Shown here in pieces: positions 54,931-62,298 of a stretch of 64,000 nucleotides of DNA; position 1 is the first letter of the stretch; every line of letters begins with the position of its first letter. This DNA is from Rheinheimera riviphila (GTDB taxonomy: Bacteria; Pseudomonadota; Gammaproteobacteria; Enterobacterales; Alteromonadaceae): positions 1 through 64,000 of the forward strand of contig NZ_SACS01000021.1 in NCBI RefSeq assembly GCF_004005945.1, read 5' to 3'. The position numbers and the translations under genes are program-made. Under the pieces are notes generated by a model. The model made no database searches. It was not told where the DNA came from and worked only from the letters and a program-made list of their open reading frames with translations.

Positions 54931-55763
54931 TAAAAGGTGGCCTCCAGCGCCAGATAATAGCCTTGTTGTTGGGCGAGGCCAGCGATGCTGCCTAAATCAA
55001 CATAACCACCCACCACACTGAAATTCTGGTTAATAAACCAACCGACAAAAATATCGCGCCAGTGTTCTTCGTCAGCAAAGGCCAGATTGTTTGGTTTTTG
55101 CCGGAATTCAATACCGACCGCCAAATCCGGCCGTAGCAGCACCGCCGCTGAACTTTCAAACATATATTGGTAGTTATTGTGGTTGGCGCCGCCAAAACCG
55201 AGCAAGCCAATTTGGTTGGCTTTAGTGGCGCGAATGGTGGCGTTTAATAACAGGTTGCGACCCGCCACCGCGCCAAAATACACTTTGCTGGCGGCGAGAT
55301 AGACATCGGTACCGGAATCGTTTTGCGCGCCAACGGCCAGGGGTAAACCGGAGTTGCGGTGTTTTTTATACTGTAATCCAACACTGATTTGCGGCAGGCT
55401 GGTGTACAACAATTCACCGGCGATATGGTATTTCAGACCCAAGACGTCCTGCTGTAAATCGCCACCAATAGTATCGAGGTTAAATTTCTGCCGGGTCAGT
55501 GACACTTCCCATTGATTGTTATAACTGGCGCCGATGCCGAAATTTTGTAAGGTAAAGTCATCAACACCGACGCGGCTGGTAAAGCTATTGACCGACCACT
55601 GGCCGCTACTCGCGTAGCCGTTAATCACCGCCCAGGGCACAATGCCACCCCCAGCGGCGCCTTCAATCGAGGTCGAACCGCCGGTGGCAATGACTTTACT
55701 GCCCGCGGCCGCTGGCAATGACAGCATCAATCCAACCAAAGCACAGATCAGTCGTTTCATCAA
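54930..55763 (-). CDS. DUF3034 family outer-membrane-like protein
   Basis: 277 residues with a signal peptide ending near PAAAG (about 20). It starts as DUF3034 proteins do (GGSTSIEGAAGGGIVPWAVINGYA) and continues as alternating amphipathic strands to a terminal Phe (LALEATF), typical of an outer-membrane beta-barrel. Function not known. It overlaps the GGDEF-EAL gene (ATGA) and the globin gene (TAATG), placing all three in one coupled operon. Confidence 0.78.
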   Translation of the reverse strand: MMKRLICALVGLMLSLPAAAGSKVIATGGSTSIEGAAGGGIVPWAVINGYASSGQWSVNSFTSRVGVDDFTLQNFGIGASYNNQWEVSLTRQKFNLDTIGGDLQQDVLGLKYHIAGELLYTSLPQISVGLQYKKHRNSGLPLAVGAQNDSGTDVYLAASKVYFGAVAGRNLLLNATIRATKANQIGLLGFGGANHNNYQYMFESSAAVLLRPDLAVGIEFRQKPNNLAFADEEHWRDIFVGWFINQNFSVVGGYVDLGSIAGLAQQQGYYLALEATF

Positions 55764-58150
55764 AAACTCCCGCTATTATCGCTGCGACCAAACCAACGGT
55801 CGCGACTGGGTTCAAACGTCTGCAGCCATTGCTCAAAGGCTGCTGCCGGCAAGGGTTTGGAGAAAAAATACCCCTGCACTGTATCCACACCATGCTGTTG
55901 TAGTTTGGCAAGGCCGGCGACATTTTCCAAACCTTCCGCTGTCACCTTTAAACCCAGGCCATGTGCCAGTTGAGTGGTGGCTTGCACTATCAGCTCATCA
56001 TTTTGATTATGCTCAATATCTTTAATAAATGCGCGGTCAATTTTCACTTCGTGGACCGGCAATTGTTTCAGATACGCCAATGATGACTGGCCGGTACCAA
56101 AGTCGTCAATCGCCAGTTCGATGCCCATATCCCGCAGCTGGGTTAACACATGAATGACCTGTGCCGGGTCCTGCATCACCGCGCCTTCGGTTACTTCCAA
56201 CGCCAGCGCCGACGGTGACAGCTGAAAATGCTGTAACCGGCTTGCCATCTGCGCTGGCAATTCGGGATTGAGTAAATCGTGCGCCGATAGGTTAATTGCG
56301 ACTTTCATTTTAAGCTGTTGCTGCTGCCAGCGCGTCAGCTGGGCCAGCACCTGGTCAATCATCCAATCCGTCACCAGCGCAATTAAGCCGGAATGTTCGG
56401 CCAACCGGATAAATTCATCCGGCGGAATAAAACCAAGTTCCGGGTGTTGCCAGCGGATCAGCGCCTCAGACGAGTGACAAATTTGCTGGCCAAGGCTGAC
56501 TTTAGGCTGATACACCACAAACATCTGACCACTTTTTAACGACAACGGCAGGTCACGCAGAATGGTTAGTTCGCGCTGATGACTTTCATCCTGACCTGAT
56601 TGATACACCGCCAGATGGTCATGTCGCACCTTGGCGTGCACCATCGCAATATCGGCCCGGCGCAAAGCATCGTCGGCGCTGATCTCGGTCGATTCCAGCA
56701 CATAAAGCGCCAGCGCCAGCGTCAGATTCATGCTGGAACCACCGAGTTTAAATTCCTGACTCAGCGCAAATTGCAGGCTCGCAAGCGGCGTTGTTCGGCT
56801 TTGTTGGGGCGGCTGTTGTGGAAATTGTTGTGGTAGCTGTTGTGGTAAAAGCAGCAAAAATTCATCGCCACCAAGCCGCGCCAGTAATAATGGCGGCTGC
56901 AGGCTTAATAGTGGGCTCGATTTCAGGCGGTTGGCCAGTTGTTGCAGTAACAAATCGCCATTCTGATAACCAAAGGTGTCGTTGATATGTTTAAAGTCTT
57001 TGATGTTGATCAGCAATAATTGCAAGTTCGGCTGGTGCAGCAGCGCTGGTAATTGTTGTTCGACAAAACTGCGGTTGGCGAGGCCGGTCAGTGAATCATG
57101 TTGTGACTGGAACAAGATTTGTTGTTCACGCTGTAAAATATCCTGCTGCATTTTGGTCAGGGTTTGGCTGAGTAAACCCACTTCACCTTTATGAATAAGG
57201 GGCGCTGTTGCTCGGATCCCCTGACCAATTTGCCGTGCAAAATCAGTGAGTTGGCGTAGTGGCTGGGTAATGCTGCGCGCCACCAGATAGGCGAGTAATA
57301 AGGCCAACGATAGGCCAAGACCAAAAATCAACAGCAATTGGCTGCGCGCCTGTAGATAGTTGTCACGCCAGCGGGCAGTGGCTAAATGTAAAAACGCAAA
57401 CAATTGCTGCTGGCTGTCGAGCGCCACGGCGTGGGTTAAATAAGGCGGGATCACATCGTCAAACACCAGATTTTCGCCATCGCCGACACTAGATCCGGTA
57501 TTGTGCGGCAAGGTTGCCGGTAGCTGTTGTTGCAAGGTGGTGGCCAGTAGTAGCTGCTGGCCCGGCGTCACCCGGCTGAAGCTGATGTCCAGATCGGTCA
57601 CACCTTTGATTTGGGTGGCTAAATCCTGATCCAATAAAAACCCCATGCCGACCCAAGCGATCAGCTGCGGGGCTTTCACCGGCATCATTACCAACTGATA
57701 AGCGTCGTCACCGATCAGCACAATATCGGCCAGACTGTCGCGGCCACTTTGCTTCATTTCTTTATATAAAATTGTGATTTGCGTCTGGCTGATTTGTTGC
57801 TGTGTGCTGGCAAGTAATTCGCCGCTGGGGGATAACAACACACTGACATTGGCCTGAATACGGCCACCATGATTCTCCAGCACCGAGGCGATGGTTTCCT
57901 GCTCGGACGTTGCCACGGCGCGGCGAAAACCAAAATCACTGGCAACGATCCGTACTGAAGTACTGAGCTGCTCGGAGCGGTTGGCGAGGGCTTGCTGGAA
58001 CACTTTGCTGGCGACCGACAACGACTGCTGCGCCTGAGAATAACTGTCCCGTTTCATCGCACTGAGCGTGGCAAAACCAATGGCAACCGCCATCAAGCTG
58101 AGCAAGCCTAACAATAATAAGATCAATCGGATGCGTAACGAATCGAACAT
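55760..58150 (-). CDS. Membrane GGDEF-EAL c-di-GMP signalling protein
   Basis: ATG 58150 (GAGG upstream) gives 796 residues. Membrane helix 5-30, a periplasmic sensor (about 32-265), membrane helix 270-291, HAMP 292-345, GGDEF (350-520) with intact GGDEF at 427-431, and EAL (535-796) with EALIRW (562-567), IDDFGTGQSSLAYLK, KIDRAFI and EGLE. Both domains keep key residues, so cyclase, phosphodiesterase or both are possible. A Gln/Pro-rich insert (about 437-451) interrupts the GGDEF domain right after its signature. First gene of the operon with DUF3034 and globin. Confidence 0.88.
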   Translation of the reverse strand: MFDSLRIRLILLLLGLLSLMAVAIGFATLSAMKRDSYSQAQQSLSVASKVFQQALANRSEQLSTSVRIVASDFGFRRAVATSEQETIASVLENHGGRIQANVSVLLSPSGELLASTQQQISQTQITILYKEMKQSGRDSLADIVLIGDDAYQLVMMPVKAPQLIAWVGMGFLLDQDLATQIKGVTDLDISFSRVTPGQQLLLATTLQQQLPATLPHNTGSSVGDGENLVFDDVIPPYLTHAVALDSQQQLFAFLHLATARWRDNYLQARSQLLLIFGLGLSLALLLAYLVARSITQPLRQLTDFARQIGQGIRATAPLIHKGEVGLLSQTLTKMQQDILQREQQILFQSQHDSLTGLANRSFVEQQLPALLHQPNLQLLLINIKDFKHINDTFGYQNGDLLLQQLANRLKSSPLLSLQPPLLLARLGGDEFLLLLPQQLPQQFPQQPPQQSRTTPLASLQFALSQEFKLGGSSMNLTLALALYVLESTEISADDALRRADIAMVHAKVRHDHLAVYQSGQDESHQRELTILRDLPLSLKSGQMFVVYQPKVSLGQQICHSSEALIRWQHPELGFIPPDEFIRLAEHSGLIALVTDWMIDQVLAQLTRWQQQQLKMKVAINLSAHDLLNPELPAQMASRLQHFQLSPSALALEVTEGAVMQDPAQVIHVLTQLRDMGIELAIDDFGTGQSSLAYLKQLPVHEVKIDRAFIKDIEHNQNDELIVQATTQLAHGLGLKVTAEGLENVAGLAKLQQHGVDTVQGYFFSKPLPAAAFEQWLQTFEPSRDRWFGRSDNSGSF

Positions 58151-58512
58151 GAGACCTCGGTGATATTCGGTCCTCAGCAATAACCTGAGCATACCATAAT
58201 CGAAACATAACAAAAGTTACGGATTTGCATATCCATCTGATTTTTAGACAGTTCAACCGGTTTATTTCGGACTTTACTGCTGATTTTGTGGTAGCGGCTG
58301 GTCTTTAGATGAAGTAAAACCAGCATCTAACCTTAAGCTGGGATCGGCAGAACTTCAAATTTCGGCCGCAGGGTGATCAGGATCTTTCAGAATCTTCAGC
58401 TGTGCGAGGGCGCTTTACAGTGTGAAACGAACTGGCTGGCAGTACAATTGCTGACGAACCAATTACTGACGAACAGGGATTATTTGGCCCTGCTATCTGC
58501 TGATTGTGGTGC

Positions 58513-58947
58513 TCAGCATTGCGCTATATGTGACTGGCTCAGCATTCCTTCCTGAATGGTGGCGGCCAGAAAGTCGTAGTATTTGGACCAGGCGTTTTCT
58601 ATGTTGGCGTTGCACTGACCTTTTAATTCATGCTGAATCGCCAAGAGCAGGGCTGATTTGACAATGCCAAAGTGACACGATTCGACACCATAAGCGCGGT
58701 GCCTTTCGCCTAAATTCAGGAGGGTCGTTCGAAGTGATTCCGGATGCGTCACATTGCCGACCGCAGTGCTGAAAATGATGAAAAAATGCTGTTCGATCAG
58801 TTGACGATCACTTTTGAACATTGGTTTAATCATCGGAGCCAATTCAAACAAACAATCATAAAAAAGCTTTGCAAAGCTTTTCTCGGCCTGATCCAGCAAT
58901 AAAAAGGTCGAGGTGATGGTGTGTTTTTCGACCACAGTCAATTCCAT
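58513..58947 (-). CDS. Single-domain globin
   Basis: ATG 58947 is favoured by GGAGAG six bases upstream and gives 144 residues; an ATG at 58962 adds five. Globin pattern with helix-F GERHRAYGVESCHFGIVKSALLLAI (proximal His) and helix-H AWSKYYDFLAATI, resembling flavohemoglobin N-domains and Vgb-like globins without a reductase. About 360 bp upstream of the GGDEF-EAL start codon, same strand. Bases 58151-58512 between them hold no gene or clear terminator. Likely ligands O2 or NO. Confidence 0.72.
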   Translation of the reverse strand: MELTVVEKHTITSTFLLLDQAEKSFAKLFYDCLFELAPMIKPMFKSDRQLIEQHFFIIFSTAVGNVTHPESLRTTLLNLGERHRAYGVESCHFGIVKSALLLAIQHELKGQCNANIENAWSKYYDFLAATIQEGMLSQSHIAQC

Positions 58948-59034
58948 TTGAACTCTCTCCATCGCTTAAATAAGCTGTGGTTAATACTATAGTCCGAAGT
59001 GCTACCCCAATTGTGATTTAATAAAGTCAAAAAA

Positions 59035-59060
59035 AACTGCCCCCGAAGGAGCAGTTCATC
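59035..59060 (-). terminator. Terminator of the cohesin gene
   Basis: On the minus strand the arms AACTGC and GCAGTT, with inner C-G pairs and a TTCG-like loop, are followed by a run of eight T. Confidence 0.8.
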
Positions 59061-59115: not shown

Positions 59116-59682
59116 TTAACGGCGACGGGCTAACCACAGCAGTGCTGGTACCAACAACAGCAACGTTGCTGGTGCCGGAACTTCTTCCACGCCTTCAATC
59201 ACGCCGCTGGTGTTGCCGATTTGCACTTCGTCAGCCGGGATCTCAACACCCCAGCCATCGCTTAATTCAACTTTGTTGAAGTTCAGGGCAAAAGCACCGG
59301 CTTTTTTGGCGATAAAAGTAATGGTCGCCAGCTGGAAACGGTTGTCTGGCGTGGCTTGTAACTCAGCCAGTTCAAAATCTAATGCGTCAAAGTTCAGTTC
59401 CGAGAAGTTCAGCAAATTGCCGCTGACGGCTGAATATTTGTCGGTGTCAGCAAAAACGGTCAGGTAATTGCCAAAGGTGATGCTGTCAAAGGTCAGAGCC
59501 GTTGATTTAAACCATAAATCGAGATTAAAACCGGCCAGCGCGGTGTTTAAATCGCTCATCCAGATACTGGCGCTGATGGTATCGCCTTTCTGATAGCTGG
59601 TATTGTCCAGTTCAACACTGATTAAAGCAGCCTGTGTTTGCAGGCTGAAGAATAAACCGAGTACCGCAAAGAATTTTTTCAT
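59116..59682 (-). CDS. Cohesin-domain protein with PEP-CTERM anchor
   Basis: 188 residues: signal peptide 1-18, one cohesin-like domain (about 20-150; ISVELDNTSYQKGDTISASIWMSDL, ALAGFNLDLWFKSTALTFDSITFG, LATITFIAKKAGAFALNF) and a C-terminal PEP-CTERM signal VPAPAT (168-173), hydrophobic helix and RRR. Exosortase-type processing would be expected; no exosortase is in the window. The neighbouring upstream gene, same strand, encodes a nuclease ending in a dockerin, so this may be its docking partner. Family knowledge: cohesins bind dockerins through calcium-loaded dockerin helices. Confidence 0.8.
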   Translation of the reverse strand: MKKFFAVLGLFFSLQTQAALISVELDNTSYQKGDTISASIWMSDLNTALAGFNLDLWFKSTALTFDSITFGNYLTVFADTDKYSAVSGNLLNFSELNFDALDFELAELQATPDNRFQLATITFIAKKAGAFALNFNKVELSDGWGVEIPADEVQIGNTSGVIEGVEEVPAPATLLLLVPALLWLARRR

Positions 59683-59729
59683 TGTTCACATCCAAAATTA
59701 ATCATTTAATCAAATTGTTATGCTGTAAA

Positions 59730-59757
59730 GACCGCAGCGCAGTTCAGCACTGCGGTC
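59730..59757 (-). terminator. Possible terminator of the exeM-like gene
   Basis: Eight-base-pair stem GACCGCAG/CTGCGGTC with a 12-base loop between the two genes; the minus-strand tail CTTTACAGC is only weakly T-rich, so read-through into the cohesin gene is possible. Confidence 0.5.
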
Positions 59758-59775
59758 ATGTGCGAAGCAGACTGC

Positions 59776-62298
59776 TTATTTAATCGCGCAGCGGGCATAA
59801 GTACATAACGCCGCCATCGCCCGCGCATCGGTACTGTTCACTTTGCCATCTTTGTTAAAGTCGTAGCTTAAACTCAGCACCGCACCACTGCGCAGTAACT
59901 GGTTAAACAGGTTGATATCGTTGTTATCAACATCACCGTCTTTATCCAAATCAGCAGGTTTTGCCGTGCTCAGTGCCAGTTCTACTACGACCGGATCGTG
60001 GTCAGAAGAGCGGAACGGCGTGTCCTGATACAAGTCGGATTGTTGTTGTGATGTTTTGTCTTCGACGTTGTAGTCAAACACAATCGGCTCGTCGGAGTTG
60101 ATATGCCATTCAGTGGCATAAGACACCTGCGATGACAAGCTGCTGCTGGCCAGAGCGTGGTCCAGATAACCACTTTCACCGCTGAAGCTGTAGCCATAAC
60201 CACGATTACCCTGATGTTTTTCAATCAGGTTAACAAAACCAGCGCTAACGAAGGTATGAATTGGATCTTCTTTGGCGTAAGCGTTTAAGTCACCAATCAC
60301 CAGTACATCTGGATCGGTGCTGCCGGTAGGCGCGGTGTTTAAGAATGCCATCAGCTGTGTTGCAGCCTGCACCCTGGTCGCATTCCAGCAACTTTGGCCA
60401 TCTTTAAAGTCGCGATCCGGACTGGTTGAACCCGGGCAGCTGCCTTTTGATTTAAAGTGGTTGACTGCCACACTGAACACTTCATTGGTTTTCACTTCTT
60501 TGAAGGTTTGGACCAATGGTTGACGGTTACCAAAACCAAACACACCGCTGCTGGTGGTAACTGCATTACCCACCGGCACTACCGAAGCAGCTTTGTAAAT
60601 CAGGCCAACGGAAATTTCATCAGTACCAAGTGCGGTGCTGCCTGGCACGCTGGCGAAGCTATAAGTGCCGGCACCGGCCACCGCATTCAGGCGGCTGACT
60701 AAATCAACGATAGCGCTGGCGGAACCATAACCGTCGTTTTCAATTTCCATCAGACCTACCACATCTGCGTCCATTGCCGCCAAAGCCGCGACAATTTTGT
60801 CAGCCTGACGTTCAAATTCCACAGTGCTGTTGGCGCCGCGTGAGGTTGGGAAACCCGTGCCATCGCCGTTCCCGTTGAAGTAGTTCAGCACGTTAAAGCT
60901 GGCAACGGTCAGACTGTCCTGACGTTTCAGCTCTGGCGCGTCCTGGCGCAGGTTGCTGGCAGTATGGGTTGGCGTGACGGCTGGCAATAACCGCCAGGCG
61001 CTGAAGCTGAAGTCCAGCACACCTTGCAGATTACTGAACGTATCGCCCAGACGGACCGGGTTGTTCATGGTTAAACCTGGCGCTGGGTAGCTGATATTGG
61101 CCGGGTTTTTGCCGTTTTGCAGGTCGTCCAGAATGATTTTATCCAGCTTGTTCTGCGCGGCAAGGGCGATGGCTTCAGCCGTGCCCGGACGGAACTGGTT
61201 GGTTGGGGTGTACAGACGTTTCGACGACAAACCCAATTCACCATAAGTGCCGAGGCTGAAGGTATCAGACACAGTCAGCGACTGACCGATTTGCACTTGC
61301 ATACTTTCCAGCGCTTCCAGGCCGGTCAGATTGCTGAACGGCAGGCTGAGTGCTACCGGAGCAATTGCTTCACCCGGGCCACAATCCAGCAATGCGGCTG
61401 AGCGTTTTAACTGGGTTTTGGTGAAGAATTCTTCAACCACACCGATGATCCGCACTTTGCTGCCCGCTGCCGGGTAGTCCGTCACGCCGTTGTTGTAGAT
61501 AAAGATTGCTTCGGAAGTGGCTGGGTTGTTGTCTGAATCTGCCGCTTCTTCCTGCACATAAAAGCCAGTGGCTGTTTGCAGTTGCTGAGTGACAATACCT
61601 TCAATAATATGAATTTTGCCAACTTCGGCTGATGCAGTGCCGCTGCCCTGAATGGCGCTGATGAAAGTTGCGGTTTCACCGCAGGCGCCGATCAACGGAT
61701 CCGGCGTTGGGTCCGGATCTGGATCCGTGCCGCCACCGCCTTCCATGCTATGAGAACCCAGGTTGCTGAAAGTGTTGACGGCAAAAGAGACCCATTGGGC
61801 TGCCGGGTCAAAAGCATCACTGCCATCGTTGTCGCCCTGAGTGACAGTTGATTGGCGGACCAGGGTTTTATCGATGGTTTTGATATCGCCAGTGCCCCAG
61901 CTACTCGCAGGACGGAAACCAATCTGACCCACGACATCAACCAAAGTAGTGCCGTTGTATAACGCAACGGCGTCATCACCGTTAAAATTGCCTGAGCCGA
62001 GCGTTAAGCTGGCGGACGTTTGTTTGTCTTTTAATTCTTGCACTGCGGCGGTATCAACCAACACCAACACCGATTTGGCGGCAATTTCACCGGATAAATT
62101 CACGGTTTTGCCGGCGGTGACGGCGCCGTTTGAAAATACTTTGATACTGTAACCGGCTAGATTTAACGGGCTGCTTGAAGGGTTGTAAATTTCCAGCGCT
62201 TTATTGTTTGAAGAACCTTCTACATATTCAGAAATAAAAGGTTCAGCCTGAAGTGCGGGCGCCAAAAGCGCTGGCAGCAGGAGCAGTTTAAATTTCAT
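59776..62298 (-). CDS. ExeM/NucH-type extracellular nuclease with C-terminal dockerin
   Basis: 840 residues. Signal peptide 1-18; lamin-tail domain (about 19-135; ALEIYNPSSSPLNLAGYSI); GGGG-(DP)n linker at 187-201; OB-like region (about 220-310); endonuclease/exonuclease/phosphatase domain (about 462-773) with SFNVLNYF, GLMEIEND, VNHFKSKG, GDLNAYAKEDP and SSDHDPVV. ExeM-type nucleases degrade extracellular DNA in Shewanella. Residues 783-824 hold two calcium loops of type I dockerin form (DLDKDGDVDNND and DFNKDGKVNSTD), with CTYARC at the end. A dockerin takes the place of the GlyGly-CTERM tail I would expect, next to a cohesin gene. Confidence 0.88.
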   Translation of the reverse strand: MKFKLLLLPALLAPALQAEPFISEYVEGSSNNKALEIYNPSSSPLNLAGYSIKVFSNGAVTAGKTVNLSGEIAAKSVLVLVDTAAVQELKDKQTSASLTLGSGNFNGDDAVALYNGTTLVDVVGQIGFRPASSWGTGDIKTIDKTLVRQSTVTQGDNDGSDAFDPAAQWVSFAVNTFSNLGSHSMEGGGGTDPDPDPTPDPLIGACGETATFISAIQGSGTASAEVGKIHIIEGIVTQQLQTATGFYVQEEAADSDNNPATSEAIFIYNNGVTDYPAAGSKVRIIGVVEEFFTKTQLKRSAALLDCGPGEAIAPVALSLPFSNLTGLEALESMQVQIGQSLTVSDTFSLGTYGELGLSSKRLYTPTNQFRPGTAEAIALAAQNKLDKIILDDLQNGKNPANISYPAPGLTMNNPVRLGDTFSNLQGVLDFSFSAWRLLPAVTPTHTASNLRQDAPELKRQDSLTVASFNVLNYFNGNGDGTGFPTSRGANSTVEFERQADKIVAALAAMDADVVGLMEIENDGYGSASAIVDLVSRLNAVAGAGTYSFASVPGSTALGTDEISVGLIYKAASVVPVGNAVTTSSGVFGFGNRQPLVQTFKEVKTNEVFSVAVNHFKSKGSCPGSTSPDRDFKDGQSCWNATRVQAATQLMAFLNTAPTGSTDPDVLVIGDLNAYAKEDPIHTFVSAGFVNLIEKHQGNRGYGYSFSGESGYLDHALASSSLSSQVSYATEWHINSDEPIVFDYNVEDKTSQQQSDLYQDTPFRSSDHDPVVVELALSTAKPADLDKDGDVDNNDINLFNQLLRSGAVLSLSYDFNKDGKVNSTDARAMAALCTYARCAIK

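Follow-up and report, generated by a model that had tools for sequence, protein, structure and literature searches.

A dockerin-ended ExeM-type nuclease and its single-cohesin neighbor in Rheinheimera riviphila: a probable two-part enzyme tether

Why should a secreted nuclease end in a dockerin, and why should the gene beside it encode a cohesin? The question is raised by a locus of Rheinheimera riviphila (GCF_004005945.1; Gammaproteobacteria, Alteromonadaceae), found in a stretch of 64,000 nucleotides (nt; positions 1 to 64,000 of NZ_SACS01000021.1) that is called the window here. The genome assembly totals 4.75 Mb in 114 contigs, and the window belongs to the one labeled C28. A first-pass annotation made from the letters alone had proposed that an anchored cohesin holds the nuclease at the cell surface. 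Both genes lie where it placed them, on the same strand and 93 nt apart. We consider it probable that they form a dedicated one-to-one tether, in which a cohesin placed at the surface or in exopolysaccharide captures its own secreted enzyme. The features of the two genes are as follows.

59776 to 62298, minus strand: ExeM/NucH-family extracellular nuclease, 840 residues, with a dockerin end (NF033681 and Pfam domains)
62245 to 62298, minus strand: probable signal peptide of the nuclease, residues 1-18 (translation inspected by eye)
61921 to 62244, minus strand: lamin tail domain (LTD), residues 19-126 (PF00932, 56.4 bits, cut-off 34.3)
59971 to 61605, minus strand: ExeM/NucH catalytic region, residues 232-776 (best stretch of NF033681; Exo_endo_phos, PF03372, at 467-767)
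59779 to 59955, minus strand: type I dockerin, residues 782-840, comprising two calcium-loop repeats and a C-x4-C at the end (PF00404 and a genus profile)
59116 to 59682, minus strand: single-cohesin protein, 188 residues, with an exosortase-type sorting tail (PF00963 and predicted fold)
59629 to 59682, minus strand: probable signal peptide of the cohesin protein, residues 1-18 (translation inspected by eye)
59287 to 59619, minus strand: cohesin domain, residues 22-132 by Pfam (PF00963) and 19-166 in the predicted fold (model)
59119 to 59181, minus strand: PEP-CTERM-like sorting tail, residues 168-188, composed of VPAPAT, a hydrophobic stretch and arginines (TIGR02595, 14.5 bits, cut-off 16)

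The nuclease passes the ExeM_NucH_DNase model NF033681 with 647 bits against a cut-off of 300, and its Exo_endo_phos domain scores 38.4 bits with PF03372. It falls below the cut-off of NF033680, which describes the GlyGly-CTERM form exonuc_ExeM-GG (413.9 versus 1300). Its C-terminus passes PF00404 (Dockerin_1; 24.7 bits, cut-off 22.9) and scores 113.1 bits with a profile of the genus dockerins. Two duplicated loops, putatively calcium-binding, are legible in the dockerin alignment. The predicted structure of this region has a predicted local distance difference test score (pLDDT) of 87.8, and its six top matches in the PDB are dockerin-containing entries, with probabilities of 0.85-0.95 and all weaker than E 0.001. 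These data bear out the first-pass assignment of an ExeM-type nuclease with a two-loop type I dockerin. The second ExeM-type nuclease of the genome, on C26, stops at the catalytic domain and has no dockerin.

The neighboring protein scores 24.1 bits with PF00963, exactly the cut-off, and two results weigh against calling it a cohesin: a whole-genome scan with PF00963 did not list the gene, and a sequence search of PDB chains with the protein gave nothing convincing, the best match (E 0.074) being a non-cohesin. However, its AlphaFold model, with a pLDDT of 95.0, has 102 PDB matches at E <= 0.001, and every one of the best 50 (E 2e-9 to 2e-7) comes from an entry for a cohesin, a cohesin-dockerin pair or a scaffoldin. 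The model and its matches clearly indicate a cohesin fold despite the borderline sequence scores, consistent with the minimal same-strand cohesin first proposed.

The same annotation gave this cohesin a PEP-CTERM anchor, a claim that stands as to layout and genomic context and falls short as to profile score. The C-terminus has the expected motif, hydrophobic stretch and basic end. The genome encodes exosortase A (316 bits, cut-off 208) next to an XrtA-system glycosyltransferase gene, and 11 PEP-CTERM matches exceed the cut-off. One other PEP-CTERM protein of the genome (L301) shares the VPAPAT motif.

The pair has a counterpart elsewhere in the genome. Contig C18 encodes an M9 collagenase (305.9 bits) with a related dockerin end, and the gene after it specifies a separate cohesin that bears a sorting-type tail. 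This collagenase is the only other dockerin protein found with the genus profile, which returns two dockerins in all. The cohesin profile gives two full matches and three matches covering the sorting tail only, and the latter were rejected as cohesins. A PF00963 match on C20 (19.7 bits, below the cut-off) was set aside as an Rhs-type protein by eye, and a third PF00404 match, on C59, as an EF-hand protein by eye. With two single-cohesin proteins and no multi-cohesin scaffoldin found, a cellulosome in this genome is rejected.

The pairing recurs in a sample of 22 Rheinheimera genomes that includes the source genome. Cohesins number 21 and occur in 10 of the 22; the closest by cohesin identity is that of G006 (98%). 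Dockerins found with the genus profile likewise total 21; they are confined to these 10 genomes, and each genome has as many of them as it has cohesins. Every one of the 21 cohesin genes adjoins a gene for a dockerin-ended protein, on its 3' side and on the same strand, with gaps ranging from a slight overlap to 128 nt. The cargo consists of 10 nucleases, nine M9 collagenases and two phosphoesterase-like proteins that form a third cluster; the Pfam domains were confirmed for three representatives, namely the window nuclease, L074 and L071. An exosortase is present in 8 of the 10 cohesin genomes versus none of the other 12. At one locus, L058 of genome G009, stops interrupt the nuclease frame, but its dockerin end and the neighboring cohesin gene remain intact.

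An ExeM relative is present in all 22 genomes, which allows the tails to be compared. In nine of the 12 genomes lacking a cohesin, the relative shares 45-47% identity and ends in another kind of long tail; the other three (G002, G011 and G014) have only a shorter ExeM that stops at the catalytic domain. This distribution agrees with the earlier expectation that another anchor would stand where the window nuclease has its dockerin.

Beyond the genus, the best 80 of 215 ExeM loci found with the nuclease were examined, some of them in genomes of the genus scan. Where the nuclease ends in a dockerin with the terminal C-x4-C, the next gene encodes a cohesin in 30 of 30 loci. A cohesin is next in none of eight loci with a dockerin-like tail minus the cysteines and in none of 42 without a dockerin; three of these 50 cohesin-less loci (L175, L179 and L185) are uninformative because they have under 200 nt of downstream sequence. 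The first-pass annotation had named a failure of cohesins and dockerins to co-occur across relatives as evidence against its proposal, and the opposite was found. Chance adjacency of the two genes is rejected on the same counts, 21/21 in the genus and 30/30 here. Carriers include Rheinheimera texasensis, R. baltica, Pseudocolwellia, Cognaticolwellia, Thalassotalea, Aliiglaciecola, Lacimicrobium, Bowmanella and Alteromonas. The cysteine-less double loops, with no cohesin as next gene, are seen in ExeM proteins of Marinobacter, Hahella and the Aliikangiella/Kangiellaceae type (L150, L151, L153, L156, L160, L164, L172 and L179).

A scan of 395 genomes of the family with the cohesin gave matches at E <= 0.001 in 148, tail-only matches included, and the 80 highest-ranking places beyond the genus were analyzed. 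A dockerin protein adjoins 70 of these by profile (64 upstream, 6 downstream). Five further loci (L265 and L270 with a broader profile, L268 and L271 by eye, and L273) bring the count to 75 of 80; at another, L235, the neighbor was masked. The pairs span 17 further genera, as counted by eye from genus labels. In a class-wide sample of 369 genomes, eight loci lie outside the family at E <= 1e-8, and seven adjoin a dockerin protein, one of them weakly (L326, E 1e-4). Among 102 aligned cohesin proteins, the PEP-CTERM family PF07589 matched 37 and PF00963 matched 36 (E <= 0.01). The broad dockerin and cohesin profiles applied to the named ExeM loci and to the added family and class-level loci derive from pairs among the 91 described below, and the genomes of these pairs partly overlap the 80 named ExeM loci. 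All source tails of the broad dockerin profile carry C-x4-C (85/85), and the broad cohesin profile includes the signal peptide and sorting tail. A narrower, core-only cohesin profile recovered 23 of the 30 cohesins of the named ExeM loci; the seven absent from its result belong to six Alteromonas-type loci and Thalassotalea loyana.

The cargo is not confined to nucleases. The 91 pairs (21 from the genus, 70 from elsewhere) comprise 47 nucleases, 22 collagenases, seven members of an unnamed family of about 600 residues, groups of four, two and two, and seven singles, counts that lean toward nuclease and collagenase because the search profile derived from those pairs. Pfam domains in the other cargo include PKD and Ig repeats, carbohydrate-binding modules, BNR and PASTA. 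Outside the 91, the cargo is a metallophosphoesterase at L273 and an IgGFc-binding-like protein at L265. The order is reversed at six loci of other genera (L255, L275, L282, L284, L319 and L323), in which the cohesin gene comes first and the dockerin is N-terminal in a large protein, often with PKD or Ig repeats. The two-part tether first suggested is well supported by comparison, whereas its restriction to a nuclease is too narrow. We lean, with modest conviction, toward a general Gram-negative display system in which exosortase-sorted single cohesins each serve as a dedicated socket beside one dockerin-tailed extracellular protein, be it nuclease, collagenase or another, and in which this two-part anchor replaced the enzyme's own C-terminal tail in exosortase lineages.

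In the mechanism that we favor for the window pair, both proteins would be exported by the signal peptides recognized by eye, the nuclease ending in a dockerin expected to bind calcium and the cohesin carrying a sorting tail of exosortase type. Processing of this tail by exosortase A would leave the cohesin on the cell surface or within the exopolysaccharide. There the dockerin would plug into it, probably in a calcium-dependent manner, and the enzyme would be retained near the cell, where DNA would be cut close by. The producer may benefit through the extracellular DNA feeding or biofilm remodeling first suggested. The same gene unit also occurs with M9 collagenases and with further extracellular proteins.

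Several results weigh against a dedicated tether of this kind. No exosortase was seen in the cohesin genomes G009 and G012, which are estimated to be 99 and 100% complete and are assembled in about 140 and 680 contigs, respectively. TIGR02595 scores the window cohesin tail at 8.3 and 14.5 bits in two scans, below its cut-off of 16, and a PEP-CTERM scan did not list the tail of the C18 cohesin at E <= 1. The C18 collagenase dockerin scores 17.9 with PF00404, below 22.9, and was unlisted at E <= 0.01 in the Pfam domain scan. PF00963 gave no match at E <= 0.01 in 66 of the 102 aligned cohesin proteins, and four of the 80 family loci (L261, L266, L269 and L280) have no dockerin in the stretch fetched. 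Finally, a test for cohesin-dockerin coevolution beyond shared descent in 46 of the 47 nuclease pairs was null (partial correlation 0.233), with the dockerin ranking 21 of 78 segments.

This last result bears on an alternative in which any cohesin of a genome accepts any of its dockerins, so that the enzymes are tethered but the pairs are not dedicated. The lack of a sign of pair-specific matching favors such sharing, and so does the fact that a genome may hold as many as three pairs, all from one related family. However, equal numbers and adjacency for every genus pair argue for dedication, and the dockerins differ by cargo class at loop positions 10-11, where type I dockerins have their recognition residues; position 11 is frequently N in nucleases and R in collagenases. 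We regard shared sockets as unlikely.

Cohesin-dockerin binding is very tight, which argues against a second alternative, namely that the cohesin binds the dockerin only during transit through the periplasm or outer membrane, the enzyme then being freed and no lasting tether formed. The sorting tail and the co-occurrence with exosortase likewise suggest a destination rather than transit. Strict one-to-one pairing would suit a dedicated chaperone equally well, and the available text of PMC12188702 allows that mature PEP-CTERM proteins are released or remain periplasmic. Such a secretion escort seems improbable to us. The available parts of that work, on a cyanobacterium, and of PMC9850573 describe possible outer-membrane or polysaccharide anchoring, or release, for PEP-CTERM proteins, with route and place unsettled. 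Because the reported destinations are so varied, cell surface and matrix are not separable here for the proposed tether.

That the dockerin is a calcium-dependent stability or folding tail that does not bind the neighboring cohesin is very improbable. In its favor, a cohesin gene does not come next after 8 of the 38 ExeM genes with dockerin-like tails, but those eight are the ones without the terminal cysteines, and adjacency spans many genera and several cargo families.

A dedicated tether would be related to several described systems. Clostridial cellulosomes, including the surface-anchored OlpA and OlpC, use an enzyme-borne type I dockerin and the same cohesin fold, and the OlpA and OlpC cohesin entries 3ul4 and 4dh2 are among the fold matches of the window cohesin. 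In contrast to those systems, no multi-cohesin scaffoldin was found in the genome, the tail is of exosortase type rather than a Gram-positive anchor, and the cargo is nuclease and collagenase. Archaeoglobus fulgidus, whose entry 2xdh is also among the fold matches, and the anaerobic methanotrophic (ANME) archaea have such modules outside cellulosomes. ANME genomes carry many cohesins, dockerins and exosortase-type genes according to the available parts of PMC5244752 and PMC9012536; unlike here, those parts describe neither a constant pairing of an enzyme gene with a cohesin gene nor a cohesin with an exosortase-type tail. Shewanella ExeM and Vibrio Xds belong to the same nuclease family (NF033681). 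Shewanella ExeM differs from the window nuclease in that it is described as having a membrane anchor at its C-terminus that includes a GlyGly-CTERM motif, and a dockerin is unmentioned in the available text (PMC6085458). Sorting by PEP-CTERM and exosortase A (XrtA) is matched by the exosortase, glycosyltransferase and PEP-CTERM proteins of this genome, but here the sorted protein is a cohesin, that is, a receptor for another secreted protein.

A term search of the text available for Haft et al. 2006 found neither cohesin nor dockerin. Searches of the open literature returned no paper joining cohesin with PEP-CTERM, nor one joining cohesin, dockerin, nuclease and PEP-CTERM. For cohesin, dockerin and exosortase, only a review of methanotrophic archaea was returned. 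Dockerin with collagenase and cohesin gave papers that are off topic by their listing. For dockerin with Colwellia, the latter is merely part of a domain name in the available part of the paper examined, and for dockerin with Alteromonas, the papers among the matches listed are seemingly off topic. No description of the nuclease-cohesin tether was found in the open literature searched, although the survey of non-cellulosomal modules by Peer et al. 2009, outside that search, may list some of the proteins. The parts are known, and their combination was not found in the literature searched.

The surroundings of the window pair include four further features.

59683 to 59775, minus strand: 93-nt spacer between the nuclease and cohesin genes, with a strong hairpin at about 59730-59757 (ViennaRNA, -28.8 kcal/mol for the spacer)
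59034 to 59057, minus strand: terminator-like hairpin and T run 3' of the cohesin gene, weak evidence since 6 such sites were found in the region versus 6.0 expected from shuffles
58513 to 58962, minus strand: globin gene (Pfam), 3' of the pair
55760 to 58213, minus strand: GGDEF/EAL-like gene (by eye), following the globin gene

Strong spacer hairpins of differing sequence occur in nuclease and collagenase pairs of G000, G006 and G012 (93-127 nt), the bearers being the window spacer, L055, L056, L068, L073 and L074; three short spacers (24-45 nt) of other genomes have none. A GGDEF/EAL protein with a sensor domain lies closely 3' of the nuclease-cohesin pair in L059 (Pfam), and an open reading frame of similar size follows the pair in most of L057-L063. 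A link of the pair to cyclic di-GMP control is possible.

If the dedicated tether is correct, cohesin-dockerin docking would be a regular enzyme-display device in Gammaproteobacteria, independent of any cellulosome and carrying enzymes that degrade DNA or protein. Some exosortase substrates would gain a concrete, measurable job, and partners and a location would be predicted for short PEP-CTERM proteins that have no clear annotation. The pairs would also provide new plug-socket combinations for Gram-negative surface display.

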